Source: a virus
Direction: 5' to 3' (one strand)
DNA length: 64,000 nt
IMG/VR virus record: IMGVR_UViG_3300036766_000439
Location: 1 to 64,000 of that record
Below are positions 9,660 to 58,225 of this stretch, piece by piece (position 1 is the first letter of the stretch; every line of letters starts with the position of its first letter). The notes beneath the pieces are model-generated. The model was not told the DNA's origin. It made no database searches and worked only from the letters and a program-made list of their open reading frames with translations. The position numbers and the translations under genes are program-made.

Positions 9660-9684
9660 GGGCGATAATTGGCGATGATGGCGG

Positions 9685-10194
9685 TTAGACGCGCCCCGCG
9701 CGCGGCTCATGCACGATGTTGGGCAAAGTCGCGCGGATGCGTTTCGCAGCCCGCTCAAGGGTTTTCGCGAGCCTCACCTTTGCGGCGTCATCGAGTTCTT
9801 TTTCGTAGATTTCCCACATTTCATGCCGGAAGAATCTTTCCACGGATACGGTGGCCTCTATCCACGGATCATCGGCACCGACCGGGGTCACCGCGTGCTC
9901 GATTAGCGGGACACCGCGCCGAACCCGGAGAGCCCACGATGGCGATTCCGTGAATGCACCGCGGATAATTTCACGCGCATTTTCTTCGGCGACTTCCGGG
10001 CACTCGCTTTCGACTATGCCGAGAAGTTCTCTTGCTGTTTTTGATGTGTAGCCCAAACAAGTCCCCAGCGCCAACGCGCGGGGTTTCCGCGGCGATTTCG
10101 TAGTAAGTTTTCGAGTGTTTTTCTTGAGCATAAAATCAGTCCTTTCTTTCCGCGCGGGGCACTCTGGCTTTTTGATTTTGGCGTCAGCGGTCAT
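9685..10194 (-). CDS. Cassette-type protein, duplicate of the gene at 55292
   Basis: A 169-aa protein from ATG 10194, which overlaps the upstream stop. From residue ~53 (KTARELLGIVES) to near the end it is the same protein as that at 55292-55666, with one visible substitution (Gly to Glu). The N-terminal ~50 residues differ and are basic (a different 5' end). The shared DNA stops exactly at the R'' element CCCAACA (9717), after which the two attC regions diverge. No domain is recognised; the core is acidic and helical. Confidence 0.65.
   Translation of the reverse strand: MTADAKIKKPECPARKERTDFMLKKNTRKLTTKSPRKPRALALGTCLGYTSKTARELLGIVESECPEVAEENAREIIRGAFTESPSWALRVRRGVPLIEHAVTPVGADDPWIEATVSVERFFRHEMWEIYEKELDDAAKVRLAKTLERAAKRIRATLPNIVHEPRAGRV
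9717..10042 (-). repeat. 326-bp duplicated cassette segment (inverted relative to 55300-55625)
   Basis: Reverse-complementing this stretch gives the same sequence as 55300-55625, with very few differences seen by eye. The shared block ends at the attC R'' element on one side and at AAAAACAGCAAG on the other. It is the strongest direct link between the two cassette arrays. Confidence 0.9.
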
Positions 10195-10508
10195 GGTGAG
10201 TCTGGTTGCTTCGTCCGTCCGGCGTGCCGGACCTTCTCCATCGCCGGCGTTGCGTCGCCGTGCGTGCAGTCGGCCAGCCAGTAGTCGTGCCACTTGAGGT
10301 CACTGAGGTTGCGCCAGCACCACGCCGTCTTGTGCCAGAAGGGGTGATCCCACCGCGCCAGGAATGGGCAGTCCGGCGAGCAGTGGTAGCCGTCTTCGCC
10401 CAGCACCCGCGCCATGCTCCTGCGTTCCTTGGCGGCGCGCATGGCGGCGAATTTCTTCATCCGTTTTAGGTTCGTGCTGCGCCAAAGCGATTTGCGTCTT
10501 ATGGTCAT
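10191..10508 (-). CDS. Cassette-type protein with Cys/His/Trp-rich centre, 105 aa
   Basis: Basic N-terminus (MTIRRKSLWRSTNLKRMKKF) followed by a Cys/His/Trp-rich region (CSPDCPFLARWDHPFWHKTAWCW, read as separate motifs CSPDC and WHKTAWCW). This suggests metal binding. ATGA overlap with the gene at 9685-10194. It follows the gene at 10527, whose end contains an R''-like GCCGAAC; the right half of that attC is not evident. Unknown function. Confidence 0.55.
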   Translation of the reverse strand: MTIRRKSLWRSTNLKRMKKFAAMRAAKERRSMARVLGEDGYHCSPDCPFLARWDHPFWHKTAWCWRNLSDLKWHDYWLADCTHGDATPAMEKVRHAGRTKQPDSP

Positions 10509-10526
10509 TTTTCGGTGCGGCCTATT

Positions 10527-10763
10527 CTATTGTTCGGCATACACGATTCCGCGTGCGACGTTCCACTTGCCACAGTGCGGGCAGTTCGCGGCGATCCCCT
10601 CATCCGGTTCTCCGCGATTGAATGGCCGGTGGTCGCGCGTCGCGAACGGGCGTTTGCAGTTTCCGCATACGATGCTCGCCTTCGGTTGCCCCCAAAGGCA
10701 GATGCTCCACGCCTCGAATGAGGCCGCGTCGCAGATTTGGTCTTGTGTGAGTTGGATTGCCAT
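10527..10763 (-). CDS. Zinc-ribbon cassette protein, 78 aa
   Basis: Two CxxC knuckles, CGNC (~residue 33) and CPHC (~residue 62), flank an Arg/His-rich segment, the layout of a treble-clef or rubredoxin-like zinc ribbon. It begins 9 bp after the degenerate R' of the attC at 10772-10833. Similar short zinc ribbons occur in the main array (53201, 53658, 54942). Confidence 0.65.
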   Translation of the reverse strand: MAIQLTQDQICDAASFEAWSICLWGQPKASIVCGNCKRPFATRDHRPFNRGEPDEGIAANCPHCGKWNVARGIVYAEQ

Positions 10764-10771
10764 AAAAAGAA

Positions 10772-10833
10772 GCCTACCAATGTGCTACAGAGAACGGCCC
10801 CCGAGCGGGCCGTCTCTGACCACGGCGTTCGGC
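10772..10833 (-). other. attC site (62 bp), minus strand, near-copy of 55618-55679
   Basis: On the minus strand R'' is GCCGAAC. The arms AGAGACGGCC and GGCCGTTCTCT pair with one extra T in the right arm, and R' is degenerate (TGGTAGGC). The same hairpin occurs at 55618-55679, where R' is intact (GTTGGGC). Confidence 0.8.
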
Positions 10834-11102
10834 CAGTGAGCGTTTAGGAGTTCCGCGAGGTGATCCCCGATCTGGTCTTGGATCGCAGCGGCCTTATCGG
10901 CTGGCAGGCCATGCGCGCCCGTGCCCGTTAGGTGGCCCCAGCCTCGGATGTCGAGCATACGCTCAGCGCCTTCGCCACTACCCCAGATTATACCATCCTC
11001 ATGCCGAAACGGCGGAGTGAAGTATTTCGCAGCAAGGCCGAACCAGGCGCTAGAGCCAACGCTCGCAGCCTGTCCTTTTTCGGGTGATTGTTCTCCGCTC
11101 AT
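10785..11102 (-). CDS. Cassette-encoded protein with attC-derived N- and C-termini, 105 aa
   Basis: Starts at the ATGAGC of the left arm of attC 11037-11110 and reads through that site (VGSSAWFG). The central part contains YFTPPFRHEDGIIWGSGEG and DIRGWGHLTGTGAH, then a helical C-terminus. The last ~14 residues (VVRDGPLGGRSL) are translation of the next attC, showing that this frame lacks a stop before its own attC. No family recognised. Confidence 0.55.
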   Translation of the reverse strand: MSGEQSPEKGQAASVGSSAWFGLAAKYFTPPFRHEDGIIWGSGEGAERMLDIRGWGHLTGTGAHGLPADKAAAIQDQIGDHLAELLNAHWPNAVVRDGPLGGRSL

Positions 11103-11110
11103 AGTTATAG
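11037..11110 (-). other. attC-like site (74 bp), minus strand, partly degenerate
   Basis: Reading the minus strand: R''-like CTATAAC, ATGAGC in the left arm, right arm GCGAGCGTTGGCTC and R' GTTCGGC. The left arm pairs only partly. The stop codon of the upstream cassette gene lies inside R''. Called from the conserved right half and its position between two cassette genes. Confidence 0.6.
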
Positions 11111-11335
11111 GGTTTTCGGCGAGATGCGAAAAGTGACGCGCACCACTTTGCATTTTCCAATGTGCGGCTTGAGTGCCTTGGCCATTTCTGCCGCGCGGTA
11201 TCGGTGGCAGTAGAGCTGCGGAGTTGATTCGGAGCCTAGAGTTATTCGTCCGCTGTGATGCTGCACGGCCCACGCTGAACCACCCGTAGAGCCAACGCGG
11301 GCGCGGCTCCGTCCTTTTGCTTTAGAGGTCTTCAT
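11105..11335 (-). CDS. Cassette protein translated from inside attC, 76 aa
   Basis: ATG 11335 lies in the loop of attC 11274-11379. The frame crosses R' as GG-Ser-Ala (VGSTGGSAW), the same preferred frame as in the main array. The rest is basic (YCHRYRAAEMAKALKPHIGKC) and may be a small nucleic-acid-binding domain. The stop lies in the R'' of the next attC. Confidence 0.55.
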   Translation of the reverse strand: MKTSKAKGRSRARVGSTGGSAWAVQHHSGRITLGSESTPQLYCHRYRAAEMAKALKPHIGKCKVVRVTFRISPKTL

Positions 11336-11379
11336 GTTTTCGATTGGCTAGAGCCGCGTGGCTCACTTTGACGTTCGCT
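11274..11379 (-). other. attC site (106 bp), minus strand, first of the second array
   Basis: Minus-strand R'' AGCGAAC, left arm GAGCCACGCGG, right arm CCGCGTTGGCTC with one extra T, R' GTTCAGC. It begins 37 bp after the stop of the SF2 helicase gene, so the cassettes are fused directly to the end of the recombination operon. Confidence 0.8.
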
Positions 11380-11415: not shown

Positions 11416-13128
11416 CTATGCGTCAATACGTTTCTTCGCCTTGATTGTCTTGTCGATCACCGCGGACGCCTCGTTCACGGTCAGCGTGGCACAGGTCTGC
11501 TCATCGAGTCCTAGCTGCGCCATCAGCGATAGCTGCCGCGGCGTTGCCAAGTGGTGTTTCAAGCGCGAGATCACGCGGGCAATGACTTTCGACGCGAGCC
11601 CCTTGCATTTGATGTTGCTCACGTCGATCCCCTGCTTTTGCAGAAAACTCAACTGCCCGTCCGTCGGCGGCAGGCTGTCCCATGAAGTCTCCGGTTCATA
11701 GCTGGCCAAGGACGCATCCCCCAAAGACACGGAGAGCGCAATGGGGTCAATCGTCCGGGCCTGCTTGCGCGCGTGCTTCTTGGCCGCGTCCTGCAACGCC
11801 TTGAGCATGTCCCGCTCCGCCACAGACTCAGCCGCCACCAAATCCACCTCCCCGGACTCCAGCATGGCTTTCCGTATCGCCGGTTTCGAGGCGACAAGAT
11901 CCACCGGCTGAATCAGGTCGATGCGGTCGGTCAGCCATAGGAAATCGAGGATCACGAAATGTGGCTTGGCGGAGGCTGCGATTGCCGCCAGTCGGGCCTC
12001 GCGGTCGTCCAAGTGGTCGATCAATCCCGGCAGCGTGCGGGTTCCGCGGACACTGGCCTGCACGAAAAAACTCCAAATCTTGGTCGGCCGCAGGATGCAG
12101 ACTCCTGTAATGTCGGGCACGTCAAAGCCCTCGACCACCAAAAGGGCGTTGCAAAGCACGGTGCCCGGTCCCGCGGCGCGAAAGGCGACAATCTTCTCGT
12201 CCCGGTCATCGCAGGCGCCGGACACGAAACTCCCGTTCATCCCCTCATCGCACAGGGCTAAAGACAGCAACCGGGCGGTTTCTATGGACGGCGTAAACAC
12301 CACTGTCTTTAGAGTCTTGGCGTGAAGGGCGATCTGCTTGGCGACTTCCCGCAGGATCGGTGCGATGCGGGCCGTCACCTCGCCCAAGTCGAAATCCGCC
12401 CCCTGTCCGCCGGCACGGGATAGTTTGACTCCGCGCATGTCAATCTTGAGCGGGATGTTCTTCACCAGCGGGCGCACGAGATACCCGTCGCGCACCGCTT
12501 CGAGCAGTCCGTATTCATAGGCGATCTTTTGATAAAGCTCCCCAAGGTCGCGCTTGTCGCCGCGGCTGGCCGTCGCCGTCACACCCAAGATGCGGGCCTT
12601 GTGCTGGTATTCGGCTCCGATCTCCGGCGCGGACCATCCTTCATTGAGAGAGTCCCGCCCGTAGTGGAAATAAAAGATAATCTTGAGGTAAGACTTGGCG
12701 AGGCTCCGATGGCATTCGTCCACGATGACGAGGCTGAAATGATCGTCCGCAAACCCCGTCAGCCGGTTGTCCCGCGTCAACGTCTGCACCGACGCAATGA
12801 CGACGGAGGCAAACGGGCTCGCATGATCGTCCGCCTTCTCCTTGTCGGCCACGAGTCCGGTGGACTTGCGCAGCTTGTCTATCGCCTGCTCTAGCAACTC
12901 ATCGGTATGCGCGAGAATCAGCACCTTGCCGCCTTTGGCGACTTCATCGCGGGCGATGTTGGCGAAAACTACGGTCTTGCCACAGCCGCCACTCATCACC
13001 ACGAGTTGCCGCGTAGCCTCCGCCCAGCCAGCCTCGACCGACTCGATGCACTCAGTCTGATAAGGGCGCAGGCGAAGCAGCGGCGCGGGCGCGTCGTCAG
13101 CCCAATCAATTTCTAGGATTTGGCTCAC
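11416..13128 (-). CDS. SF2 DEAD/DEAH-type helicase
   Basis: A 570-aa protein with Walker A SGGCGKT (residues 46-52), a DECH box (137-140), motif III-like TATAS (VTATASRG) and a C-terminal helicase half with motif VI-like QASVRGTR (~358-365). This is the RecG/UvsW/Rad25-like arrangement typical of phage DNA helicases. It overlaps the VRR-NUC gene by ATGA, and a nuclease-helicase pair suggests recombination or fork repair. The extra ~150 residues at the C-terminus are helical and not identified. Confidence 0.9.
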   Translation of the reverse strand: MSQILEIDWADDAPAPLLRLRPYQTECIESVEAGWAEATRQLVVMSGGCGKTVVFANIARDEVAKGGKVLILAHTDELLEQAIDKLRKSTGLVADKEKADDHASPFASVVIASVQTLTRDNRLTGFADDHFSLVIVDECHRSLAKSYLKIIFYFHYGRDSLNEGWSAPEIGAEYQHKARILGVTATASRGDKRDLGELYQKIAYEYGLLEAVRDGYLVRPLVKNIPLKIDMRGVKLSRAGGQGADFDLGEVTARIAPILREVAKQIALHAKTLKTVVFTPSIETARLLSLALCDEGMNGSFVSGACDDRDEKIVAFRAAGPGTVLCNALLVVEGFDVPDITGVCILRPTKIWSFFVQASVRGTRTLPGLIDHLDDREARLAAIAASAKPHFVILDFLWLTDRIDLIQPVDLVASKPAIRKAMLESGEVDLVAAESVAERDMLKALQDAAKKHARKQARTIDPIALSVSLGDASLASYEPETSWDSLPPTDGQLSFLQKQGIDVSNIKCKGLASKVIARVISRLKHHLATPRQLSLMAQLGLDEQTCATLTVNEASAVIDKTIKAKKRIDA

Positions 13129-48629: not shown

Positions 48630-48786
48630 CCAAAAGGCCGCGCGCCTGCACGCCGCGAAGCCCTGGCTGTCGCATGCCGCCGTGATGTCTGAGCTTGCCT
48701 CTCGCCCAAGGAGAGGCAAGAAAGTGCCCGTAATGAAAACCAGCGAACGGCGCCACCCGTGGCAGGAACGCGCGGACTGTGGCTAA
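48610..48786 (+). CDS. Small basic protein, 58 aa
   Basis: GTG 48610, overlapping the previous gene by 20 bp. LTIDQKAARLHAAKPWLSHA then Arg/Lys-rich sequence. It ends 8 bp before the core site GTTAGAC that opens the integron array, so it is the last resident gene before the cassettes. Confidence 0.4.
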   Translation: MRPLTIDQKAARLHAAKPWLSHAAVMSELASRPRRGKKVPVMKTSERRHPWQERADCG

Positions 48787-48793
48787 ACGGTCG

Positions 48794-48800
48794 GTTAGAC
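48794..48800 (+). other. Isolated integron core site, possible attI or first cassette boundary
   Basis: GTTAGAC matches the GTTRRRY core. I find no clear paired left half upstream, unlike the attC sites downstream. It marks the left edge of the array and is followed by TCCGATTTTATGACC, a leader shared exactly with the last cassette at 59185. Either an attI remnant or a degenerate attC; not decided. Confidence 0.55.
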
Positions 48801-48810
48801 TTCCGATTTT

Positions 48811-49101
48811 ATGACCATCACGATCCAGATAGGTAATACCGACGACAAACTCACGCAGGCCGAATGGTCTGACTTCGTGGCTCTCGTCCACGACTATATC
48901 GAGCGATACGTCGAAGATCGCGCCGCAAGTGTGCATTTCTTCGGCGTGTCGGCCGACTACGAGCGGTGGCAAAATGCGGTGTGGGTCGTCTTGCTAATGG
49001 ACGAACAGGAGCCGTCACTGCGCGCTGACATCAGCACCGCACGCCGGAAGTTCCGGCAGGACTCCGCCGCCTGGACAACCGGAGAAACCTCTTTCGTCTA
49101 A
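48811..49101 (+). CDS. Cassette protein, 96 aa, unknown
   Basis: First cassette gene; ATG 48811 in the leader TCCGATTTTATGACC. Acidic, aromatic-rich (TQAEWSDFVALVHDYIERY, ADYERWQNAVWVV). Its stop TAA lies within R'' GTCTAAC. No family known. Confidence 0.65.
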   Translation: MTITIQIGNTDDKLTQAEWSDFVALVHDYIERYVEDRAASVHFFGVSADYERWQNAVWVVLLMDEQEPSLRADISTARRKFRQDSAAWTTGETSFV

Positions 49102-49130
49102 CTCCAAATATGAGCCAGATGGCCACTCCA
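49096..49130 (+). other. attC left half with matching right half displaced
   Basis: R'' GTCTAAC and left arm GAGCCAGATGGCCAC. The exact partner right arm (GTGGCCATCTTGGCTC, with the extra T) is absent here but occurs at 54241-54257. The shared loop segment CCACCTGATATGAAAACTAC appears at both places, indicating a split attC. Confidence 0.6.
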
Positions 49131-49136
49131 CCTGAT

Positions 49137-49586
49137 ATGAAAACTACAAAAAAACGTGCGCGGAGATCATCTTTCTTTGCCGAACTATTTTCAACTATGC
49201 CAATCCCAAAAACACTCAGTCCCCGTCCCGCTCGTTGGCTCTTGCGTCTGTGGGCTAAGGCGTGGCTGGACGGTGAGCCAGCGCCGCTCGCCTACCAACC
49301 GCAGCACCTCTGGAGCGATGGCACATTCGAGATGTGGGCCAACCTCGGCGAACCGACGAGCTCGAAGCGAGTCACGCGCGAGCGGCTCGCGATATATCTC
49401 GCACTCCACCCCGGCGAAAAAGTGCGCGTGCTGAAAATCGTGAGCGCCACCGAGGTGGTCGATGTCACGGATTTTCTGCCGAACGGCGAGGATGACGCAC
49501 GGCCGCTCGGGGCCGTTGCGTCTGGCGCGTGGTTGGGAAAGCCCTCTGAAAATCTCACGAAAACAACGAACACCAAAGATGCATGA
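49137..49586 (+). CDS. Cassette protein overlapping the C5 methyltransferase gene, 149 aa
   Basis: ATG 49137; ATG 49110 (attC left arm) and ATG 49197 are alternatives. The N-terminus reads through attC-like sequence (RPARWLLRLWAKAW). The body has YQPQHLWSDGTFEMWANLGE and RERLAIYLALHPGEKVRVLK, compact alpha/beta. The stop overlaps the ATG of the next gene, so it is probably co-translated with it. Function unknown. Confidence 0.5.
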   Translation: MKTTKKRARRSSFFAELFSTMPIPKTLSPRPARWLLRLWAKAWLDGEPAPLAYQPQHLWSDGTFEMWANLGEPTSSKRVTRERLAIYLALHPGEKVRVLKIVSATEVVDVTDFLPNGEDDARPLGAVASGAWLGKPSENLTKTTNTKDA

Positions 49587-50388
49587 GCTGGCACTATTCG
49601 CAGGCGCTGGCGGCGGCATACTCGGGGGCAAACTCCTCGGGTGGACTACCGTCTGCGCCGTCGAATGGAATGAATACGCCCGTCGCGTGCTCCTCGCCCG
49701 ACAAGACGACGGGAGCCTGCCCGCCTTCCCTATCTGGGACGACGTGCAAACCTTCGACGGACGACCGTGGCGCGGTCTGGTGGATGTCGTGTCTGGCGGC
49801 TTCCCGTGCCAAGACATCAGCGTGGCCGGAACCGGCAAAGGGCTCGACGGAGAAAAAAGCGGGCTGTGGTCGGAAATGGCCCGAATCATTGGCGAGGTGG
49901 GACCGCGGCACGTGCTCGTGGAGAACTCGCCAGCTCTCACTTTTCGGGGGGGCACCCGAGTGCTTGGAGACCTTGCCTCGATGGGGTATGATGCGCGATG
50001 GGGAATTGTGGGAGCAACCCACACCGGCGCTCCACACGAAAGGGAGCGCATGTGGATCGTGGCCGACTCTATCCGCGAACGAAGCGCGGAACGGCTGGCA
50101 GGACCGAAGCGGTGCGAAGAAAGGGAAGCAAGAGTCGCTGACGACGGTGCTACAGCGCCAGATGGGGCGGAAAACCGGCGAGCCGTGGCATGGTGGGCAT
50201 CTGAACCCAGCGTGGGCCGAATGGTTCATGGGCTGGCCAATCGGATGGACCGACTGCGCTGCACCGGCAATGGACAGTCTCCGCCAGTGGTGCGACTCGC
50301 TTGGCGGCTTCTTTCAACGTCCGAAAACCAAGGAGGCCGCGTAGGGCTTCCCAACGCAGAGCTATCCGATGGCACGGCGAACATCTAA
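49579..50388 (+). CDS. dcm: C5-cytosine DNA methyltransferase
   Basis: 269 aa from ATG 49579. ALFAGAGGG (motif I), GGFPCQDISVAG (motif IV with catalytic Cys77), VLVENSPAL (motif VI), RWGIVGATHTGAPHERERMW (motif VIII) and TGNGQSPPVV (motif X) are all present; the short target-recognition region is typical of phage enzymes. It methylates cytosine in DNA, likely protecting phage DNA from host restriction. Encoded in a cassette; another frame is also open over the same DNA. Confidence 0.88.
   Translation: MHELALFAGAGGGILGGKLLGWTTVCAVEWNEYARRVLLARQDDGSLPAFPIWDDVQTFDGRPWRGLVDVVSGGFPCQDISVAGTGKGLDGEKSGLWSEMARIIGEVGPRHVLVENSPALTFRGGTRVLGDLASMGYDARWGIVGATHTGAPHERERMWIVADSIRERSAERLAGPKRCEEREARVADDGATAPDGAENRRAVAWWASEPSVGRMVHGLANRMDRLRCTGNGQSPPVVRLAWRLLSTSENQGGRVGLPNAELSDGTANI
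49583..50344 (+). CDS. Overlapping frame related to phage methyltransferase-associated proteins
   Basis: A +1 frame inside the dcm gene, starting 4 bp later. It encodes WRTRQLSLFGG, LPRWGMMRDGELWE, SWPTLSANEARN and LNPAWAEWFMGWPIGWTD, sequences that resemble a known group of phage proteins. Its stop lies just before the CCCAAC near 50350, that is, before the likely cassette end, whereas the Dcm frame runs on. Either a real dual-coded protein or a family partly created by frame confusion. Confidence 0.4.
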   Translation: MSWHYSQALAAAYSGANSSGGLPSAPSNGMNTPVACSSPDKTTGACPPSLSGTTCKPSTDDRGAVWWMSCLAASRAKTSAWPEPAKGSTEKKAGCGRKWPESLARWDRGTCSWRTRQLSLFGGAPECLETLPRWGMMRDGELWEQPTPALHTKGSACGSWPTLSANEARNGWQDRSGAKKGKQESLTTVLQRQMGRKTGEPWHGGHLNPAWAEWFMGWPIGWTDCAAPAMDSLRQWCDSLGGFFQRPKTKEAA

Positions 50389-50392
50389 GACT

Positions 50393-50788
50393 ATGAGCAA
50401 GCCAAAAACTAAACGCAAACCCGCAACAGTCGCAACTGCCGAGGCCAAGTGCCATTCGGATCGGCGATTGGTTGGGTGCGTCGTTACGAAACAGGGCGGC
50501 CCAATCCTCAACGAAGGATATGTGTGCGCCGCCGGTGACAATATCGCCGCCATCGAAATAGACATGAAATCAAAGCGGTGTGAGGTCATGGCCGAATCAT
50601 CGACGGAAGATGGGGCGCCGGTGATATGGTTAGATGGAACAAACGCGCTGCATCTGAAAAAAGGCCACGAAAAAGAAGAAACAGAAGTAGCGTTTCCAGA
50701 CTACAGGGGCTGGCGAATCTTCTCAGCCAATGTCTGCCGATACACCTTCCGCCTATGCTTCGTGCGGGATGAATCGCCTTACAAATAA
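50393..50788 (+). CDS. Cassette protein, 131 aa, unknown
   Basis: ATG 50393 after GACT. Basic N-terminus (KPKTKRKPATVATAEAKC), then beta-rich sequence (NEGYVCAAGDNIAAIEIDM, GWRIFSANVCRYTF). Stop TAA lies inside attC 50776-50872. No family recognised. Confidence 0.55.
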   Translation: MSKPKTKRKPATVATAEAKCHSDRRLVGCVVTKQGGPILNEGYVCAAGDNIAAIEIDMKSKRCEVMAESSTEDGAPVIWLDGTNALHLKKGHEKEETEVAFPDYRGWRIFSANVCRYTFRLCFVRDESPYK

Positions 50789-50872
50789 GATGAGCCACGA
50801 CCCCGCCACCCTCGACGTGAGCATGTTCCCAACGGCCCCAGCGGGGTCGTTGGCTCTGGCGGCTGGTTCGCC
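50776..50872 (+). other. attC site (97 bp)
   Basis: R''-like GCCTTAC, left arm GAGCCACGACCCCGC, right arm GCGGGGTCGTTGGCTC (one extra T), R' GTTCGCC. The ATG at 50790 is in the left arm. Confidence 0.85.
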
Positions 50873-51152
50873 TCCGTTTCGCGTGCAGCTATCACGCCGG
50901 CGTGGTTGGCGAAAGCCGCCAAACTGCGTTGTGGTCGCGCGCCCGTCCCGATGGGGCAACCCGTGGCGCGTCGGAGAATACGGCTCCGCTGTCGAATGCG
51001 TGGCTCGATACGAGCGTGCGATCCGTGACGGACGATTTACAAACGAGGTGGACGACCTGCGCCAACTGCGTGGGAAAAACCTCGCGTGCTGGTGTTCTCT
51101 TGGGGAGCCGTGTCATGCGGACGTGCTTCTTTCTTTGGCGAACCGGGGATGA
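50790..51152 (+). CDS. DUF4326-domain protein translated through attC
   Basis: 120 aa from ATGAGC in the attC left arm. The first ~30 residues are attC translation, ending AAGSP at R'. Then the DUF4326 pattern follows: CVVVARPSRWGNPW, ERAIRDGRF and LRGKNLACWCSLGEPCHADVLL. DUF4326 proteins are small and common in phages and integron cassettes; function unknown. ATGA overlap with the next gene. Confidence 0.8.
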   Translation: MSHDPATLDVSMFPTAPAGSLALAAGSPPFRVQLSRRRGWRKPPNCVVVARPSRWGNPWRVGEYGSAVECVARYERAIRDGRFTNEVDDLRQLRGKNLACWCSLGEPCHADVLLSLANRG

Positions 51153-51262
51153 GCTACACGGCCCGAAAACCAAATGACTCTATGACCACTGAAAATATCC
51201 AACCACCCAATACGCTAGCCGAAGCCCCCGATGGCCGTGTTAGCTCTGGCCCCTCGTTAGGC
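51137..51262 (+). other. attC site (126 bp)
   Basis: R'' GGCGAAC, left arm GAGCTACACGGCC, right arm GGCCGTGTTAGCTC (extra T), R' GTTAGGC. Well-formed ends; its loop carries ATG 51182. Confidence 0.88.
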
Positions 51263-51640
51263 TCTTTGATCGAATCGCTCGCCTTTGAGTCCAAGCAGCC
51301 GGACAGAGGCTACACGGTCCGCGCAAGCTACCTCAATGAGCCCCGCAAGCAGGACGCGCTAATCGAAATCTTCAAAGACTCTAAACCGCTGCGGGCCTTC
51401 TTCTTTCCGGCCTACAAGGTATGGAACATCGCCGCACACTTCCGCGACATCGTGGACGGTGAAATCGCCGGTGATAGCAGCGGCTACGAAATGGCCGCGT
51501 GGGACGGAATCACCAACAGCATAATCCTGCTCCCGCGTGAGCAAGCCCAACGCCTCGGCCAGAGCCACGGCCGCTCGGGGCCGTTGGCTCTGGCCGAATG
51601 TTCGAAATGCCGGCCTCCGACTCTGGAAAATGCCTCCTGA
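51149..51640 (+). CDS. Cassette protein, 163 aa, runs through two attC sites
   Basis: ATG 51149 in attC 51137-51262 (ATG 51182 is the alternative). The core (RGYTVRASYLNEPRKQD, FFPAYKVWNIAAHFRDIVDG) is unidentified; the last ~30 residues are translation of the next attC. Its R' crossing (TCG TTA GGC) is in a different frame from most others. No domain known. Confidence 0.5.
   Translation: MSYTARKPNDSMTTENIQPPNTLAEAPDGRVSSGPSLGSLIESLAFESKQPDRGYTVRASYLNEPRKQDALIEIFKDSKPLRAFFFPAYKVWNIAAHFRDIVDGEIAGDSSGYEMAAWDGITNSIILLPREQAQRLGQSHGRSGPLALAECSKCRPPTLENAS
51545..51606 (+). other. attC site (62 bp)
   Basis: R'' GCCCAAC, left arm GCCAGAGCCACGGCC, right arm GGCCGTTGGCTCTGGC (extra T), R' GTTCGAA. 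A minimal, compact hairpin. Confidence 0.88.
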
Positions 51641-51642
51641 AA

Positions 51643-51693
51643 TATAATGCACAATGTGCAAGAAAAAGCTTGCAATCGTCTGCACAACGTGCA
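51643..51693 (+). promoter_or_regulatory. Promoter with two tandem operators inside a cassette
   Basis: A perfect TATAAT (51643-51648) is followed at once by TGCACAATGTGCA (51648-51660) and, 33 bp on, TGCACAACGTGCA (51681-51693). Both are dyads TGCAC-N3-GTGCA spaced by about three helical turns, so a repressor bound there would block the promoter. It lies upstream of a gene pair ending in an XRE regulator, the likely binder. Confidence 0.6.
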
Positions 51694-51742
51694 TAGTCCT
51701 AAGTCATGGAGGCAATCAAGCCTCCCCGAAAAAAAATCAAAA

Positions 51743-52000
51743 ATGAACGCTCTGAAATCCACCTACCGCGCCATGAATGCCGTGATGCCCTCCGAATGCT
51801 TTCTTGCCGACAATATGCCGGTCCCGACGCCCGCCGATAACCTGAAAAAGCACCTCGCGGGTGTAGCCGCTGAGACGCTCGACGAGATCATTGAGGCCAC
51901 GGGCTACGCTGCAAACGGGGTCGCGGTCGGATACGATGCCCAGCGCGATGCGGACATCAACTCCGCCGCTCGCCGCGAACTCGCCCGCCGCCTCGCATGA
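51743..52000 (+). CDS. Cassette protein of a regulated gene pair, 85 aa
   Basis: ATG 51743, after an A-rich tract. Sequence DNLKKHLAGVAAETLDEIIE with Ala/Arg-rich C-terminus (RRELARRLA). No toxin family is recognised. The ATGA overlap with the XRE gene and the upstream operators suggest a two-gene autoregulated module, possibly toxin-antitoxin-like. Confidence 0.55.
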   Translation: MNALKSTYRAMNAVMPSECFLADNMPVPTPADNLKKHLAGVAAETLDEIIEATGYAANGVAVGYDAQRDADINSAARRELARRLA

Positions 52001-52242
52001 GCTTCGCGGACCAACTCAAAAAGGCCCGCGAAAAAGCGGGCCTCTCCATCGCGGACGCCGCCAAAGGGCGCGGCGTTTCGCCGCGCACCTGGGCGTATTG
52101 GGAAGCCGGCTTGCGGCTCCCGCCAGCCGAGCGGGACGCGATCACGCGGGAGCGTCTTCTTTCGTCGCTCACCAAAGAGCGTTCGCCCGGTCCGTCGAAC
52201 ACCAGAGATAATCCAGCTGACCGAGCCCCGCGCGATGAATAG
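51997..52242 (+). CDS. XRE-family HTH regulator of the cassette gene pair
   Basis: 81 aa. FADQLKKAREKAGLSIADAA and SPRTWAYWEAGLRLPP form a Cro/CI-type HTH. The downstream part is disordered and the stop is inside the attC. Likely binds the dyads at 51648-51693. Confidence 0.75.
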   Translation: MSFADQLKKAREKAGLSIADAAKGRGVSPRTWAYWEAGLRLPPAERDAITRERLLSSLTKERSPGPSNTRDNPADRAPRDE

Positions 52243-52290
52243 CACGCAAAACGAACAATCGGTCAGCTTGGCTTTGGCGACTCGTTAGGC
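52194..52290 (+). other. attC site (97 bp)
   Basis: R'' GTCGAAC, left arm CCAGCTGACCG, right arm CGGTCAGCTTGG (extra T), R' GTTAGGC. Followed by a gene with its own ATG at 52320. Confidence 0.85.
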
Positions 52291-52319
52291 GTCCGAAAAA
52301 ATCTCAACCAACACTCAAA

Positions 52320-52895
52320 ATGAACGCATCACTCGAAGGAATAACAGCCGCGAAGCAGATCGCTTCTTCTTATCCGCAAGCAAACATCAACGCCGAAGCC
52401 GTCGCGCAACTTATCGACGCGAACTTTGCGCGCGTCCGCGACGCTTTCAACTTCGCGAGAACGCGCGAGGAACTAACCGCGACCTACGGCAAGCCGACGC
52501 GCACAAGCGCAATCCTCCGAATCGAAATCCGTATCTTGCCGCTGGTGGAAGACCGGCCGGTGCGGAGCACAAAACCTGAAACCTCACGATCAGCCGGACA
52601 GGGTCTAGCGTCTGGTTCGCCTTTTCGGACGGCACCGGACAGGCAAAAAAAACAAATGCACGGCGCGACCGGAATCTTCCTGCGCGCCATCGGGCAAGAT
52701 GGCCGCTGGGGCTCATACGACATGGCCGAACTCGATGCGGACAGCCTGACGGCATGGCTCAAGCTGGACGGCGGCGACAACCCGCTTGCCGAGAACTGCG
52801 TTCGCATCCTCCTCGGACACCCGCAGATTCAGGCGAACGACGCGCTATGCCAGCCCGCACCTGCGGCGCGGCATTCCACGGGCGTTACCGATTAA
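52320..52895 (+). CDS. Two cassette genes fused through an attC-like segment, 191 aa
   Basis: ATG 52320. Residues 1-~75 are one short helical domain (AKQIASSYPQANINAEAVA). Residues ~76-100 are translation of the 80-bp repeat (PLVEDRPVRS...ASGS). The rest (from Met 52656) is a second domain (MAELDADSLTAWLKLDGGDN). The frame probably joins two earlier cassettes after loss of the first stop. Two separate products are also possible. Confidence 0.5.
   Translation: MNASLEGITAAKQIASSYPQANINAEAVAQLIDANFARVRDAFNFARTREELTATYGKPTRTSAILRIEIRILPLVEDRPVRSTKPETSRSAGQGLASGSPFRTAPDRQKKQMHGATGIFLRAIGQDGRWGSYDMAELDADSLTAWLKLDGGDNPLAENCVRILLGHPQIQANDALCQPAPAARHSTGVTD
52539..52618 (+). repeat. 80-bp repeat ending in R' GTTC, copy 1
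   Basis: Seventy-eight of 80 positions match 53685-53764; both end at GTCTGGTTC and diverge there. Likely a degenerate attC: the right end is attC-like but the left end lacks R''. In both copies the same frame is translated. Confidence 0.75.
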
Positions 52896-52938
52896 ACGGA
52901 CGCGGCCAATAGGGATTGGCATCAGCAACTTGTTAAGC
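52832..52938 (+). other. attC site (107 bp)
   Basis: R'' GGCGAAC, left arm GCTATGCCA, right arm TTGGCATCAGC (one unpaired base), R' GTTAAGC. Next gene has its own ATG. Confidence 0.75.
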
Positions 52939-52966
52939 GGCGAACAACGAAAACCAAAAAGAAAAT

Positions 52967-53158
52967 ATGAACGGAGAAACAAAAACACTGAATCACGAGC
53001 AGTTCCTGCAAACGTATCTGCTCAATCGCGCACTCGCACACGTCGGCGGCCTCGATGCTCCCTACGCGGTGGAAACTGGTGAGGAAGGCTGGCAGAAAAT
53101 CCAGCGCATCATCGCCAAAGACCCGAAGAACCAAAACGACAAATCTGGAACCCCCTAA
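52967..53158 (+). CDS. Cassette protein, 63 aa
   Basis: ATG 52967 after an A-rich leader. Helical (NHEQFLQTYLLNRALAHVGG) with a polar tail. Stop TAA in R'' CCCTAAC. Unknown family. Confidence 0.6.
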   Translation: MNGETKTLNHEQFLQTYLLNRALAHVGGLDAPYAVETGEEGWQKIQRIIAKDPKNQNDKSGTP

Positions 53159-53259
53159 CGTTCAAGATGAGCTGACGCGGCGAGCCGCCCTGAAAAATCC
53201 ATGAACTCGAAAGCCAACCACGAAGCCCTGTCCGCGTCAGATCGGGCGGCGGGTTCGGC
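53153..53259 (+). other. attC site (107 bp), near-copy of 55170-55276
   Basis: R'' CCCTAAC; left arm GAGCTGACGCGG, right arm CCGCGTCAGATC; R' GTTCGGC. The loop carries ATG 53201. Almost identical to the site at 55170-55276, indicating duplication of one cassette end. Confidence 0.88.
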
Positions 53260-53452
53260 GCATAAAACTCCCGAGGGCGTGCTGGTGTGCGCTCGCTGCA
53301 ATGCCGAAATGGAGTGGGAAGACTGCTCTGCCTGCGGCGGCGACGGATTCTTCGCCGGCCACGAGGAAGACCCGAACTGGTATCATCCGGGCGAACTGGT
53401 GGCCTGCCGCCAGTGCGGCGGAACTGGCGGCGCCGGACATGGGAATTTATGA
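53201..53452 (+). CDS. Zinc-binding cassette protein started in attC, 83 aa
   Basis: ATG 53201 lies in the attC loop; the first ~20 residues are attC translation ending RAAGSA. Then CARC, CSACGGDGFF and CRQCGGTGGAG give the DnaJ-type CxxCxGxG zinc-binding pattern. ATGA overlap with the next gene. Probably a small metal-binding protein. Confidence 0.7.
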   Translation: MNSKANHEALSASDRAAGSAHKTPEGVLVCARCNAEMEWEDCSACGGDGFFAGHEEDPNWYHPGELVACRQCGGTGGAGHGNL

Positions 53453-53652
53453 AGCCTGAACTCGAAGCGAATAATACAAATGCGCCAAGCGGCGTTCTGC
53501 TCCGCCCGGTTGTTGGGTCGGCGAAACTGGAGCGTATAGACGATGCAATTCAGCGGCTGAGAAAAGGCATCGCGGAATGCAATGAGCGGATCTATGAAAA
53601 AGCCTTGGCCGACTTTGGAAATGAAACCAAGGACGGGAACGCCGGCCAATAA
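53449..53652 (+). CDS. Small helical cassette protein, 67 aa
   Basis: Starts in an ATGA overlap with the zinc protein. Charged helix (RIDDAIQRLRKGIAECNERI). Second gene of the same cassette. Unknown. Confidence 0.55.
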   Translation: MKPELEANNTNAPSGVLLRPVVGSAKLERIDDAIQRLRKGIAECNERIYEKALADFGNETKDGNAGQ

Positions 53653-53657
53653 ATTTC

Positions 53658-53921
53658 ATGCGCACAAACCAAAAACCCCCCGCCCCGCTGGTGGAAGACT
53701 GGCCGGTGCGGAGCGCAAAACCTGAAACCTCACGATCAGCCGGACAGGGTCTAGCGTCTGGTTCTGGTCTGTCTTTCTCGAAAAATAATCCCGACAAGCG
53801 CACCGGCTACTGGTGCGGAGATTGTGGCCACGCGATGCGCTACAACGTGCCGCGGCTTGGGCCTGCTGGCGGTTTCGTCCACGCCGCCACTTCCAGCCTT
53901 CGGTGTGGAGCGCCAGCATAA
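53658..53921 (+). CDS. Zinc-ribbon cassette protein translated through the 80-bp repeat, 87 aa
   Basis: ATG 53658. Residues ~11-35 are the repeat translation (PLVEDWPVRS...ASGSG). Then WCGDCGHAMRYN, one CxxC, with a later Cys and His. It parallels the other attC-led zinc proteins. Confidence 0.55.
   Translation: MRTNQKPPAPLVEDWPVRSAKPETSRSAGQGLASGSGLSFSKNNPDKRTGYWCGDCGHAMRYNVPRLGPAGGFVHAATSSLRCGAPA
53685..53764 (+). repeat. 80-bp repeat ending in R' GTTC, copy 2
   Basis: See 52539-52618; two differences in 80 bp, after which the sequences part at GTTC|GCC versus GTTC|TGG. This marks the cassette recombination point. Confidence 0.75.
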
Positions 53922-53936
53922 TAACCGAAAAACAAA

Positions 53937-54218
53937 ATGAGCAAAGACCCACTCCATATCTACCTTGCGAAAGAGCGCGCCAATGGCGCATATAGCTTCT
54001 TGCTGCGCGTCCAACCGCCGCGCTACATCGGCGACACCGAAGTGCGCTTCGCGATCCACCCCGAGCTGCAATCGGGCGAGACGAATGACTACTCGGTTAG
54101 CGAAGACCCGGAGCGGCGCGATGCAGACTTCCTCTACAACCTCGCGGCGGCCCCCGATCCGGATATCGAGAAATTTCTCGCGACGCTGCGCGATCTCCGG
54201 CTTCCACACTCCACCTGA
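53937..54218 (+). CDS. Cassette protein, 93 aa
   Basis: ATG 53937, A-rich leader. SFLLRVQPPRYIGDTEVRFA and an acidic C-terminus (DPDIEKFLATLRDL). Unknown family. Ends next to attC-like sequence shared with 49131. Confidence 0.55.
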   Translation: MSKDPLHIYLAKERANGAYSFLLRVQPPRYIGDTEVRFAIHPELQSGETNDYSVSEDPERRDADFLYNLAAAPDPDIEKFLATLRDLRLPHST

Positions 54219-54219
54219 T

Positions 54220-54546
54220 ATGAAAACTACAAAAAACGTGCGCGTGGCCATCTTGGCTCTAGCGCTTTGCGAGGCCTGCTGGGCGTCCGAGAAAATCGTG
54301 ACCGCCGGCGGAACCGATTTCTCGCACGTGCAGAAGATGCTGGACGACGGATGGACCGTGAAGGCATCCCATGCGGTCGTAGCCGAGACCACGGCCTACG
54401 GAAACCACCGGATCGAAAATCTGCTTCACGTCTTCACGCTCGCGTCGCCGCCGGCCGAAACCTTGGCCGCACTGGAACGAAAGCGCGCCGCCGAAGCGAA
54501 GGCCGTTTTTGAACGAAAGCGCGCCGAGTCGCGAGACCGGCGGTGA
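54220..54546 (+). CDS. Cassette protein with signal-like N-terminus, 108 aa
   Basis: ATG 54220 in the loop segment shared with 49137. The N-terminus is hydrophobic (VAILALALCEACWAS) but is itself translation of an attC right arm, so the signal-like look may be accidental. Then a helical, Lys/Glu/Arg-rich remainder. Unknown. Confidence 0.45.
   Translation: MKTTKNVRVAILALALCEACWASEKIVTAGGTDFSHVQKMLDDGWTVKASHAVVAETTAYGNHRIENLLHVFTLASPPAETLAALERKRAAEAKAVFERKRAESRDRR
54241..54265 (+). other. attC right half matching the left half at 49096
   Basis: GTGGCCATCTTGGCTC pairs (with one extra T) with GAGCCAGATGGCCAC near 49112-49126, 5.1 kb away. R' is not intact here. Confidence 0.6.
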
Positions 54547-54629
54547 ATGCGTGCGCGGAGATCATCTTTCTTTGCCGAACGTCGCGTATCAGCCAGTCGG
54601 CGGGGAAGCCTCAACCAAATCGAAATCCA

Positions 54630-54890
54630 ATGAACGAAAATCCTGAATCTTCAAATCGCGTGCCCGTAGCCGGCCTGGCTGGGGCGATTTGTTCGGCTCT
54701 TATCTGTGCCGCACTGACAATCGGCGTGGCGCTTTGCGCTTTCGGAGTGATTCCGTGGCCAAGCGAAGCGTCCTTCAAATGGTGGTGCGCCGCCCATGTG
54801 ATTTCTTTCACGGCTGGACTGCACGCTACACGGTCCTTGCCAAACGACCAAGCTCAAGCACGCCGGACTGGGGGCGTGGATTGCAAGTGA
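54630..54890 (+). CDS. Small membrane cassette protein, 86 aa
   Basis: ATG 54630. Two hydrophobic helices (AGLAGAICSALICAALTIGV and the WWCAAHVISFTAGLH segment) and a polar end. Membrane protein of unknown role; its stop lies in the attC. Confidence 0.55.
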   Translation: MNENPESSNRVPVAGLAGAICSALICAALTIGVALCAFGVIPWPSEASFKWWCAAHVISFTAGLHATRSLPNDQAQARRTGGVDCK

Positions 54891-54927
54891 GACGCTATCC
54901 GGCGTTGCTTGCAGCGCATGGTTAGGC
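54839..54927 (+). other. attC site (89 bp)
   Basis: R'' GCCAAAC, left arm CAAGCACGCCGG, right arm CCGGCGTTGCTTG (extra T), R' GTTAGGC. Confidence 0.85.
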
Positions 54928-54941
54928 CACAACGAAAATCT

Positions 54942-55175
54942 ATGACTGACAAATTCACAGGCAAACCAATTGATAAACTATCTGACCGCTTGCCGCATCC
55001 GAACGGCGGACGCTGCGAAACCTGCGGCACTGAAACAATAGACCACTGCCCGGTGTGCCGTGCGCCTCAATGCTGCCCAAGCTGCTGCGCCGATGCGATG
55101 ACGGAAGGCACGCGCCAAGACAGCGAACAGGCTGCAAGGTCTGGCCTCGCACACACGCACGCCTATGTGGCCTAA
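54942..55175 (+). CDS. Cys-rich cassette protein, 77 aa
   Basis: ATG 54942. CETCGTE, CPVCRAPQCCPSCC: three CxxC-type knuckles, likely two zinc ions. Stop TAA is in R'' GCCTAAC. Small metal-binding protein. Confidence 0.65.
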   Translation: MTDKFTGKPIDKLSDRLPHPNGGRCETCGTETIDHCPVCRAPQCCPSCCADAMTEGTRQDSEQAARSGLAHTHAYVA

Positions 55176-55276
55176 CGAAAAAGATGAGCTGACGCGGCGA
55201 GCCGCCCTGAAAAATCCATGAACTCGAAAGCAAACCACGAAGCCCTGTCCGCGTCAGCTCGGGCGGCAGGTTCGGC
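55170..55276 (+). other. attC site (107 bp), near-copy of 53153-53259
   Basis: R'' GCCTAAC, left arm GAGCTGACGCGG, right arm CCGCGTCAGCTC, R' GTTCGGC. Contains ATG 55218. Arms pair over the full length. Confidence 0.9.
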
Positions 55277-55295
55277 AGGCTTGGAAAAAACATGA
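55218..55295 (+). CDS. attC-encoded leader peptide, 25 aa
   Basis: MNSKANHEALSASARAAGSA then GLEKT; begins in the attC loop, crosses R' as AAGSA and ends in TGA overlapping the ATG of the next gene (55292). Short, so likely a translational coupler. It parallels the zinc-protein start at 53201. Confidence 0.5.
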   Translation: MNSKANHEALSASARAAGSAGLEKT

Positions 55296-55666
55296 ATACA
55301 AAAACAGCAAGAGAACTTCTCGGCATAGTCGAAAGCGAGTGCCCGGAAGTCGCCGAAGGAAATGCGCGTGAAATTATCCGCGGTGCATTCACGGAATCGC
55401 CATCGTGGGCTCTCCGGGTTCGGCGCGGCGTCCCGCTAATCGAGCACGCGGTGACCCCGGTCGGTGCCGATGATCCGTGGATAGAGGCCACCGTATCCGT
55501 GGAAAGATTCTTCCGGCATGAAATGTGGGAAATCTACGAAAAAGAACTCGATGACGCCGCAAAGGTGAGGCTCGCGAAAACCCTTGAGCGGGCTGCGAAA
55601 CGCATCCGCGCGACTTTGCCCAACACCGTGGTCAGAGACGGCCCGCTCGGGGGCCGTTCTCTGTAG
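55292..55666 (+). CDS. Cassette protein duplicated at 9685, 124 aa
   Basis: ATG 55292. The core (ARELLGIVESECPEVAEGNA, then RRGVPLIEHAVTPVG, RFFRHEMWEIYEKELDDAAK) is identical to the gene at 9685-10194 but for one residue. The C-terminal tail (TVVRDGPLGGRSL) is translation of the attC. No domain known. Confidence 0.6.
   Translation: MNTKTARELLGIVESECPEVAEGNAREIIRGAFTESPSWALRVRRGVPLIEHAVTPVGADDPWIEATVSVERFFRHEMWEIYEKELDDAAKVRLAKTLERAAKRIRATLPNTVVRDGPLGGRSL
55300..55625 (+). repeat. 326-bp segment duplicated in reverse at 9717-10042
   Basis: Two copies of the same cassette body in opposite orientation, about 45.3 kb apart. Very few mismatches seen. See the entry at 9717. Confidence 0.9.
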
Positions 55667-55679
55667 CACTTGGTTGGGC
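55618..55679 (+). other. attC site (62 bp), near-copy of 10772-10833
   Basis: R'' GCCCAAC, left arm AGAGACGGCC, right arm GGCCGTTCTCT (extra T), R' GTTGGGC. Confidence 0.88.
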
Positions 55680-55705
55680 CTCCGATTTTCAACTCAAAAA
55701 CCACA

Positions 55706-55969
55706 ATGAAATACCGAAAGAAACCTGCAGTAATCGAAGCCATGCTCTTCACGGCTGAAACGCTGGATGAATGCGTGGCCTTCTGCGGCGGTAACTACGA
55801 ATACCGCAACGCATCGTGCCCCGCTCCGCACGGCGAAGTCATCGAAATCAAAACGCTCGAAGGCGTGATGATGGCAACGCCGGGCGACTGGATCATCAAG
55901 GGCGTGAAGGGCGAGTTCTACCCGTGCAAACCAGACATCTTCGCCGCCACCTACGAGGCCGTTCTTTGA
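55706..55969 (+). CDS. Conserved small phage protein (YRKKP-type), 87 aa
   Basis: ATG 55706. KYRKKPAVIEAMLFTAETLD, then IKTLEGVMMATPGDWIIKGV and GEFYPCKPDIFAATYE: the layout of a widespread small phage protein, here carried in a cassette. It shows that phage genes themselves circulate as cassettes. Confidence 0.75.
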   Translation: MKYRKKPAVIEAMLFTAETLDECVAFCGGNYEYRNASCPAPHGEVIEIKTLEGVMMATPGDWIIKGVKGEFYPCKPDIFAATYEAVL

Positions 55970-55973
55970 ATTG

Positions 55974-56088
55974 TCCCAACGCCAAGGTCAGCGAATCCGC
56001 CACATGAACGTCTCTGCCACATACGCTCTTAACCTGACGCCATCGACCGAGGACGGACGGGCGGATTCGCTGTGCCGCCTGGTTCAGC
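55974..56088 (+). other. attC site (115 bp)
   Basis: R'' TCCCAAC, left arm GCGAATCCGCC, right arm GGCGGATTCGC, R' GTTCAGC. Both arms pair without a bulge in the core. Confidence 0.82.
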
Positions 56089-56098
56089 TTTTCTCAAA

Positions 56099-56341
56099 AT
56101 GCACGCATACCTAAACAACCAGCGCAATCGCGAGCTGGAAAAGCTCACGCCCGCGATGTGGCGGATGCTTTTCGACATCCGCGACCACGACGACCCAGGA
56201 TATTCGCTGCGCGGAATGTCCGCGCACGGTGGCGCGAGTGGCACAAGCGCCGCGCTCCGCAAACGCGGACTGATGATCGGCGACAAACTCACCGCTCTCG
56301 GCTCCGCCGTGACCTACGTCGAATGGCGCGGCGCTTTCTAA
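56099..56341 (+). CDS. Cassette protein, 80 aa, possible HTH
   Basis: ATG 56099, or GTG 56072 in the attC (crossing R' as PPGSA). YLNNQRNRELEKLTPAMWRM, HGGASGTSAALRKRGLMIGD resembles a helix-turn-helix-like small protein. Stop is in the next attC. Confidence 0.5.
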   Translation: MHAYLNNQRNRELEKLTPAMWRMLFDIRDHDDPGYSLRGMSAHGGASGTSAALRKRGLMIGDKLTALGSAVTYVEWRGAF

Positions 56342-56446
56342 ACTGAACGACCAAGCTGAGCGACCGGAATGAGCGCGCTAGAGACATCCAATTGCAACGA
56401 CGACGTGGCCGCGCTCAGTCCGGTTCGCTCCAGCGCGTGGTTAGCA
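56342..56446 (+). other. attC site (105 bp)
   Basis: R'' ACTGAAC, left arm GAGCGACCGGA, right arm TCCGGTTCGCTC (extra T), R' GTTAGCA (off consensus at the last base). Confidence 0.8.
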
Positions 56447-56513
56447 CGTCCGGCCTTTTGCGTCCGAAAAGAAATGCTTGCAATAACCCAACGCTCGGTT
56501 ATTGTGGCGGCGC

Positions 56514-56825
56514 ATGAAAACAACCAAACTCGAAATGGGCCTGATGAAACTTCAGGCGGAAACGCCTGCCGAATCTCAGGCAATCTGCGGCATCATCGAA
56601 ATGAACTCAAAGCTGATGCCTGCCGCAGTGGTCAACAACCACGGCTGTCGGCAGGTCGGGAAAAAATACCTGAACTGGTGTCTCATCCCCGATGGTCACT
56701 TGGATGGAACGTGCCGCAAGAAACACCTGGAAGGCGACGGGTGCGACTGCCTGAAAGACGGCATCAAAGCGGGACTCAAGAAATGGGGCAAGCTGCCGTG
56801 GAACTACGTCTTCAAACGCGCATGA
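56514..56825 (+). CDS. Cys-containing cassette protein, 103 aa
   Basis: ATG 56514. CRQVGKKYLNWCLIPDGHLD, then CRKK and CDC. Possible zinc site; not a recognised family. Its stop overlaps the start of the next gene by ATGA. Confidence 0.55.
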   Translation: MKTTKLEMGLMKLQAETPAESQAICGIIEMNSKLMPAAVVNNHGCRQVGKKYLNWCLIPDGHLDGTCRKKHLEGDGCDCLKDGIKAGLKKWGKLPWNYVFKRA

Positions 56826-56968
56826 AAAAGAAGAACTCAGCGGCGGTCGCACTCGGCAAAATGCGGAGTGCGGCGAAAGCTAAAGCAGCGAGAGAGAACG
56901 GGCAGCTTGGAGGCCGTCCGAAAACCAAGCGCGTGACCCGGCGTGCTAACGCAAAGCTCACGCCATGA
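56822..56968 (+). CDS. Small basic cassette protein, 48 aa
   Basis: ATGA overlap with the gene before. KKNSAAVALGKMRS and ARENGQLGGRPKTK: the AREN/GGRPKT motif appears in many small DNA-associated proteins. Stop is inside attC 56944. Confidence 0.55.
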   Translation: MKKKNSAAVALGKMRSAAKAKAARENGQLGGRPKTKRVTRRANAKLTP

Positions 56969-57044
56969 CTACCGCGCCCACACGCTCCGACCTCGCTAAT
57001 GACTCCCACGCGGTAGTCATTGAGCGTGGAGCGTCTTGTTCGAC
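56944..57044 (+). other. attC site (101 bp)
   Basis: R''-like TGCTAAC, left arm ATGACTACCGCG, right arm CGCGGTAGTCAT, R' GTTCGAC. ATG 56965 is in the left arm. Confidence 0.8.
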
Positions 57045-57297
57045 GTTGGCGCGGCACGAATGGCAAACCTGCGAAATCGAGGACTGCGACGAATGCCAAT
57101 GGCTCGTCGATTGGGGGATGGTGATGGCGTGCGACCACTGCGGTAGCCCCGGAATGGTGGACTGCGACGGCTGGGTAATGCACGAACCGTGGCTGTCTGA
57201 TGGCGCGTGCGTCTGTATCGGTTGCAGCGCCCAAATCGAGGCGGCATTCAATTCGTCGAACGCTAAAGTTCAGACACGAGCGGAGGACAAACTATGA
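56965..57297 (+). CDS. Cys-rich cassette protein started in attC, 110 aa
   Basis: ATG 56965; attC translation crosses R' as SCS. Then CEIEDCDEC, CDHCGSPGMVDC and CVCIGC. Zinc-binding is likely. Stop overlaps the next gene's ATG (ATGA). Confidence 0.65.
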   Translation: MTTAPTRSDLANDSHAVVIERGASCSTLARHEWQTCEIEDCDECQWLVDWGMVMACDHCGSPGMVDCDGWVMHEPWLSDGACVCIGCSAQIEAAFNSSNAKVQTRAEDKL

Positions 57298-57346
57298 AAA
57301 ACAAAAAGAGCGCAGCCCGCTCGTTGTCTGTGGCGGCGGGTTCGGC
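57255..57346 (+). other. attC site (92 bp)
   Basis: R'' GTCGAAC, left arm CAGACACGAGCGG, right arm CCGCTCGTTGTCTG (extra T), R' GTTCGGC. Holds ATG 57294. Confidence 0.88.
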
Positions 57347-57542
57347 ATGGCTCCACTGGGGCTACTCAAAGGAGCTTGGGAAATACTATGCAATAATCCA
57401 AGAAAGGGATCGCGCACACGCGCTAATAATCTCAGACGATAGTATCAATTGGCGACGCGCGAGCCCACGCGAAACGTGGCAGCCGTGTAGGATTGACGCC
57501 GGCAAAATACTTCCTATTCTTCCGCTTTCGCGGGCGATGTGA
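57294..57542 (+). CDS. Cassette protein started in attC, 82 aa
   Basis: ATG 57294 in the attC; crosses R' as AAGSA. Then WLHWGYSKELGKYYAIIQE, a small compact domain with a C-terminal PCRIDAGKILP. Unknown. Confidence 0.55.
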   Translation: MKNKKSAARSLSVAAGSAWLHWGYSKELGKYYAIIQERDRAHALIISDDSINWRRASPRETWQPCRIDAGKILPILPLSRAM

Positions 57543-58141: not shown

Positions 58142-58225
58142 GATGACACAGATGCCCGCTCTCCCTGATGCTACTACCGCTGGAAACGTCCCAGCGGGCA
58201 TCTTGTGTCTGGCGCCTGGTTCTCC
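58129..58225 (+). other. attC site (97 bp)
   Basis: R'' GCCGAAC, left arm GACACAGATGCCCGC, right arm GCGGGCATCTTGTGTC (extra T), R' GTTCTCC. ATG 58143 is in the left arm. Confidence 0.88.

Follow-up and report, generated by a model that had tools for sequence, protein, structure and literature searches.

The window analysed here is 64.0 kb out of a 66.1-kb IMG/VR contig from an uncultured phage. An intI-bearing integron lies towards one end of it and, about 49 kb from that integron and behind a set of recombination genes, the minus strand at 9.68–11.38 kb carries five small genes and four attC-like elements. How could cassettes have come to a place so far from the integrase gene? A reading of the letters alone, referred to below as the sequence-only reading, had suggested that the integrase acts in trans at this second site. 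With moderate confidence, we lean towards a similar answer, in which the cluster represents a second integron platform that lacks an integrase of its own and is loaded in trans by the IntI of this phage.

The main integron spans about 48.7–60.4 kb (Table 1). Its IntI is the sole PF00589 match found in the 66.1-kb contig, in line with the earlier claim that no integrase adjoins the cluster. The locus combines an IntI-clade integrase, a putative attI beside intI and an array of attC sites, most of which have significant arm helices. The putative attI, between array and intI, can be aligned with the intI-adjacent sites of G014, G015 and G021, where similar short sites are found at the same array end and likewise between array and intI; it also resembles attI1. 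The main array has cassettes for a C5-type DNA methyltransferase (49462–50388) and for a type II/orphan methyltransferase (57587–58141), both perhaps directed against host restriction. Near-identical attC pairs are attached to different cassette genes (53154–53259/55171–55276, 94%; 52539–52618/53685–53764, 98%), and a small cassette gene contains a tandem 36-nt repeat at 54454–54525, in two copies (78%). An attC-array scan of a Verrucomicrobia MAG whose IntI is 42% identical gave no match.

The half-site GTTGGCTCTAGCGCCTGGTTCGGC, read on the gene strand, had at first been taken as L'-R', giving an array in the order attI-genes-attC with attI at 48.78 kb. This polarity was reversed on two lines of evidence. 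In the class 1 control L071 (intI on the plus strand, genes on the minus strand), the phage-trained profile matched the cassette sites on the plus strand only (17.2, 14.3, and 9.8), with no score of at least 7 on the minus strand. In the phage, where intI is likewise on the plus strand and the array lies on the same side of it, the matches are again on the plus strand, but so are the genes. The second line is an exact 368-bp repeat in G015 (L041), at 7285–7652 and 9254–9621 in the reverse complement of L041. Both of its ends fall at the AAC/GTT core, the crossover predicted by the adopted polarity, and the second copy sits between array and intI, against the attI-like site. The control and the repeat indicate that attC polarity relative to intI is classical and that the cassette genes are antisense, running towards attI. 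Reverse-complemented, the conserved half-site (GCCGAAC CAGGCGC TAGAGCCAAC) presumably resembles the R''-L'' half of an ordinary attC. The view of the cluster as a truncated array, which had followed from the first polarity, was dropped, since the corrected polarity gives complete ends. The cassette duplication in G015 is in itself a sequence trace that suggests recent integrase activity in a phage.

The longer ORF was on the gene-direction strand, antisense to attC, in 19/22 main-array cassettes and in 4 of 4 in the cluster; with seven other phage arrays added, the total was 66 of 76. The arrays named for this trait are that of the window (48740–59421), L041, L042, L046, and L035. The start codon lies inside attC in 14 of the 22 main-array cassettes, and some stop codons are the core-site TAA.

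For the cluster itself, attC sites were sought on both strands of the whole window using a 29-column half-site profile, trained on 21 main-array half-sites only and allowing a one-base spacer shift. Four matches were obtained on the minus strand within 1.2 kb, at 11280, 11043, 10778, and 10058 (attC1 to attC4 in Table 1). They form the only dense group outside the main array, and the score at 11043 is the best of the whole window. Markov shuffles gave 0.45 matches scoring at least 14 per 64 kb, both strands included. In the cluster, the top strand of attC is plus, whereas the genes are on the minus strand. Pairing was evaluated by an arm-helix test. Briefly, the stem arm was taken without the single unpaired T, the partner arm was sought upstream, and 400 shuffles set a floor of p=0.002. 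The helix was significant at this floor for 11280, 10778, and 10058 and absent for 11043; attC2 joins a perfect half-site to a weak partner arm. Most main-array sites passed the test and random GTTNNNY positions mostly failed. Free-energy z-scores were weak except for attC3, fold energies with long loops were uninformative, and an Rfam search returned no matches. The minus-strand group described in the sequence-only reading was therefore present, but its attC-like elements number four where that reading had counted three. The R' box of attC2 and the R'' box of attC3 are degenerate, the partner arm of attC2 is poor and attC4 is without GTT, and parts of the cluster may be dead. Degeneracy of the R boxes, seen in attC2, attC3, and attC4, speaks for an old age of some of the cluster.

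Table 1. Coordinates, strands and properties of the features of the cluster and of the main integron (for attC sites and the main array, the strand is that of the attC top strand).
Feature	Position	Strand	Properties
Gene D, 148 aa	9685..10131	-	Body is a near-copy of a main-array stretch
Copied cassette body	9718..10043	+	One edge at the IntI crossover, G9718^T9719TGGGC
attC4, decayed	10052..10178	+	No GTT in R'; score 15.8; helix p=0.002
105-aa gene beside attI2	10191..10508	-	First 35 aa (RRKS...MRAAKERRS) common to other phages
attI-like site (attI2)	10519..10538	+	GGCCTATTCTATTG^TTCGGC; crossover 10532/10533; alignable to the attI-like sites that further phages have
Cassette C gene, 78 aa	10527..10763	-	CxxC pairs, zinc-ribbon-like (below cut-off)
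Probable three-cassette array	10533..11373	+	10533-10827 (gene C, attC3), 10828-11112 (gene B, attC2), 11113-11373 (gene A, attC1)
attC3	10772..10833	+	R' GTTCGGC intact, R'' degenerate (GCCTACC); score 19.2; helix p=0.002; fold z -2.9
Cassette B gene, 105 aa	10785..11102	-	Weak match to PHROG 12467 (unknown function)
attC2	11037..11120	+	R''-L'' half scores 31.6; R' degenerate (GTTTTCGGC); partner arm weak, helix p=0.77
Cassette A gene, 76 aa	11105..11335	-	ORF; start codon inside attC1; no Pfam or PHROG match
attC1	11274..11379	+	R'' GCTGAAC 11274-11280, R' G^TTCGCT 11373-11379; score 21.0; helix with extrahelical base p=0.002
SF2 helicase	11416..13128	-	Pfam ResIII/DEAD; last gene of Bet/RecT-like, exonuclease, VRR-nuclease operon
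Main array	48740..59421	-	About 22 attC sites; genes on +
Main-array counterpart of gene D	55299..55630	+	99% identity to 9712-10043
Main attI-like site (putative)	59401..59421	-	CTAGTTAATCACCTG^TTAGGC; crossover base 59407; between array and intI
IntI, 318 aa	59441..60397	+	TIGR02249 (NCBI model for integron integrases) 312 bits (cut-off 265); 41% identity to class 1 IntI

Along the plus strand, gene D with the decayed attC4 is followed by the 105-aa gene, the attI-like site, cassettes C, B and A, and the helicase, upstream of which Bet-like and exonuclease PHROGs were matched. Judged from its sequence, the stretch at 10533–11373 is probably a series of three captured cassettes next to an attI-like site (10519–10538), the last cassette lying beside the helicase. 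The attC1 edge at 11379 is 37 nt past the helicase stop codon, which ends at 11416; counted from the cassette end at 11373, the distance is 42 bases. The 37-nt spacing, the common direction of genes and helicase and the five small minus-strand genes agree with the sequence-only reading. Genes A, B, and C lie within cassettes, but the 105-aa gene is no cassette; it is a neighbour of attI2 and stands where the main array has intI.

The site attI2 is directly in front of the 105-aa gene. With a DNA pattern made from the start of this gene, three contigs were retrieved: G019, L074 and L075. In these three and in the window, the attI-like site stands at equal spacing from the conserved gene start, with attC matches on the far side. 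Identity among the four phages is 29–41/46 left of the crossover, where it is partly selected because the pattern that found L074 and L075 covers part of this flank (16 nt of the attI-like core are outside the pattern), and 12–21/46 on the right. At the crossover base G^TT the conservation breaks off, and the cassette content beside the site differs in all four phages. Varying cassettes next to a platform conserved to the crossover point to site-specific exchange at some time, whichever integrase was the supplier. The cassettes at a second site, as first proposed, are thus real as a cluster, but their target is not arbitrary; it is an attI-like site conserved in three other contigs. The contigs G019, L074, and L075 gave no match for an integron integrase; all three are fragments, hence the missing integrases are no proof. 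A search for an empty version of the exact 10519–10538 site found none. A gene family with the start M(K/T/N)(L/V/I)RRKS and a strongly conserved start region adjoins the attI-like sites (L074 4120–4440, and L075); its gene precedes packaging genes in L074 and recombination genes in G019.

If the cluster is such a platform, IntI made at the main locus would insert and remove cassettes at 10519–10538 in trans, via single-stranded attC hairpins. Being antisense to attC polarity, the cassette genes run away from the helicase, across the array and in the direction of attI, and could use the transcript of the recombination operon. We infer that the cassettes join this operon for transcription, because their genes are co-directional with the helicase and follow it closely, and no terminator-like site was found on the gene strand in the helicase-to-cluster interval. 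A promoter for the cluster genes was looked for, and none was found. Recombination at the cluster by this IntI, and activity at the present day, are likewise inferred.

The main rival is phage mosaicism, in which the attI-like site, its neighbour gene and the cassettes arrived together from a G019-like phage, IntI never acted at the cluster, and the body shared with the main array came about by homologous recombination. The platform is common to otherwise largely unrelated phages, and its sites are partly degenerate, as such an import would have it. The shared body points the same way. The near-copies of a main-array gene and attC that the sequence-only reading had noticed were both recovered: the stretch at 9712–10043 is 99% identical to 55299–55630 in inverted orientation (3 mismatches in 332 nt, with the direction of copying left either way), and attC3 (10773–10833) is 93% identical to 55618–55677, within the main-array attC at 55618–55679. 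In both arrays the copied body begins at the crossover G^TT, its other end is short of attC, and the attC sites differ. The 332-nt body therefore does not represent a clean cassette transfer by IntI. Against wholesale import stands the fact that the cassettes differ in all four phages on a platform conserved up to the crossover base, and we consider it unlikely, though deserving of serious attention. A peptide scan of viral contigs showed no close relatives of the helicase, gene D or the 105-aa gene, and there was no nucleotide match to the cluster among the INPHARED phages.

Three contigs with a related terminase also carry the helicase: G006 (61%), G003 (52%), and G005 (44%). In none of them does the cluster follow the helicase, as had been anticipated for related phages. 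Small unrelated genes follow the helicase in G006, a cytosine methyltransferase and then a DnaB-like gene in G005, and in G003 (IMGVR_UViG_3300031244_000002) a convergent homologue of window gene 60394–61005. G003 has its own array at 31.4–36 kb, a different backbone position, with methyltransferase cassettes related to those of the window (47% and 67% identity). A tyrosine recombinase was not found on its 61.7-kb contig; hence, array positions vary among relatives and integrase-less arrays recur. A profile match at 23160 in G006 (score 20.9) was isolated and within a coding frame of the other strand, and it was set aside. Relative to G003, the helicase-portal-terminase block (window 11.4–42 kb) is inverted, with integron parts at both new junctions.

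This gene order allows a second alternative, in which one integron once lay between the helicase and the converging gene now at 60394–61005, and an inversion split off part of it, so that the helicase was left with cassettes and the other gene with intI. The two genes are immediate convergent neighbours in G003, both window junctions carry integron parts, and main array and cluster are in inverted orientation. However, the cluster is no broken half, since it possesses an attI-like site of its own, which other phages conserve, and its distal attC1 is complete. Moreover, helicase and capsid module are convergent in G006 as in the window, hence the order in the window is not necessarily a derived one. 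A split of one array is accordingly improbable.

Insertion by IntI into an unspecialised genomic site of attG type behind the helicase, which the sequence-only reading implies, is very improbable: use of non-classical genomic attG sites has been reported for IntI1 (Loot 2024, cited in PMC12901181), but the insertion point here is attI-like and common to three other phages. That there are no cassettes at all, just chance hairpins among small phage genes, agrees with the unremarkable thermodynamic z-scores of most sites but is hardly credible against the profile statistics, the arm helices with an extrahelical base and the near-identity to main-array parts.

Phage integrons and integrase-less attC clusters are already published. 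Qi et al. 2023 (PMC9892861) described phage integrons and CALINs, that is, attC arrays with or without intI, phage attC sites that recombine with IntI1 and attI1, and orphan methyltransferases as cargo. The window resembles these in having attC arrays in a phage genome and methyltransferase cargo; the accessible text of that paper reports no second platform in an IntI-bearing phage, no conserved attI-like site next to a different gene, and no cassette genes antisense to attC. Like a CALIN, the cluster has at least two attC sites and no nearby integrase; unlike a CALIN, it keeps an attI-like site, at 10519–10538 and abutting the first cassette, and an IntI is encoded at another locus of the genome. 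The cluster shares with attG insertions a position away from intI, but its site is attI-like and conserved. The main array has the geometry of a class 1 integron, with attI next to intI and the same attC polarity relative to intI, except that the phage cassette genes run towards attI and intI, not away. In the reverse integron of Treponema (PMC3607928, PMC4909258), intI is transcribed towards attI. Cassette genes and intI share one direction there, as they do in the phage. In the phage, however, attI (59401–59421) precedes the intI start at 59441, with intI running away from attI and the cassette genes towards it.

In the searchable literature, which has little of the subscription journals, we came across no phage with two platforms, no conserved attI-like platform next to a gene other than an integrase gene, and no account of cassette genes being regularly antisense to attC. 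Judged by this absence, two platforms in one phage and antisense cassette genes may be new. We tentatively suggest, as a possibility that we hold with some reserve, that an integron form has evolved in phages whose cassette genes lie antisense to attC, which lets cassettes enter phage operons already present upstream of intI or of other genes, and that phages keep extra integrase-less attI platforms as separate landing sites, loaded in trans by a single IntI that comes from the phage or from a co-infecting element.

If IntI of this phage does serve the cluster in trans, one phage integrase would run two cassette landing sites, one of them behind recombination genes, and phages would gain a route for swapping small accessory genes during infection. 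The textbook rule is that attI supplies the promoter for the cassette genes. At the main locus, the genes run towards attI; a reversed coding direction of cassettes would break that rule.
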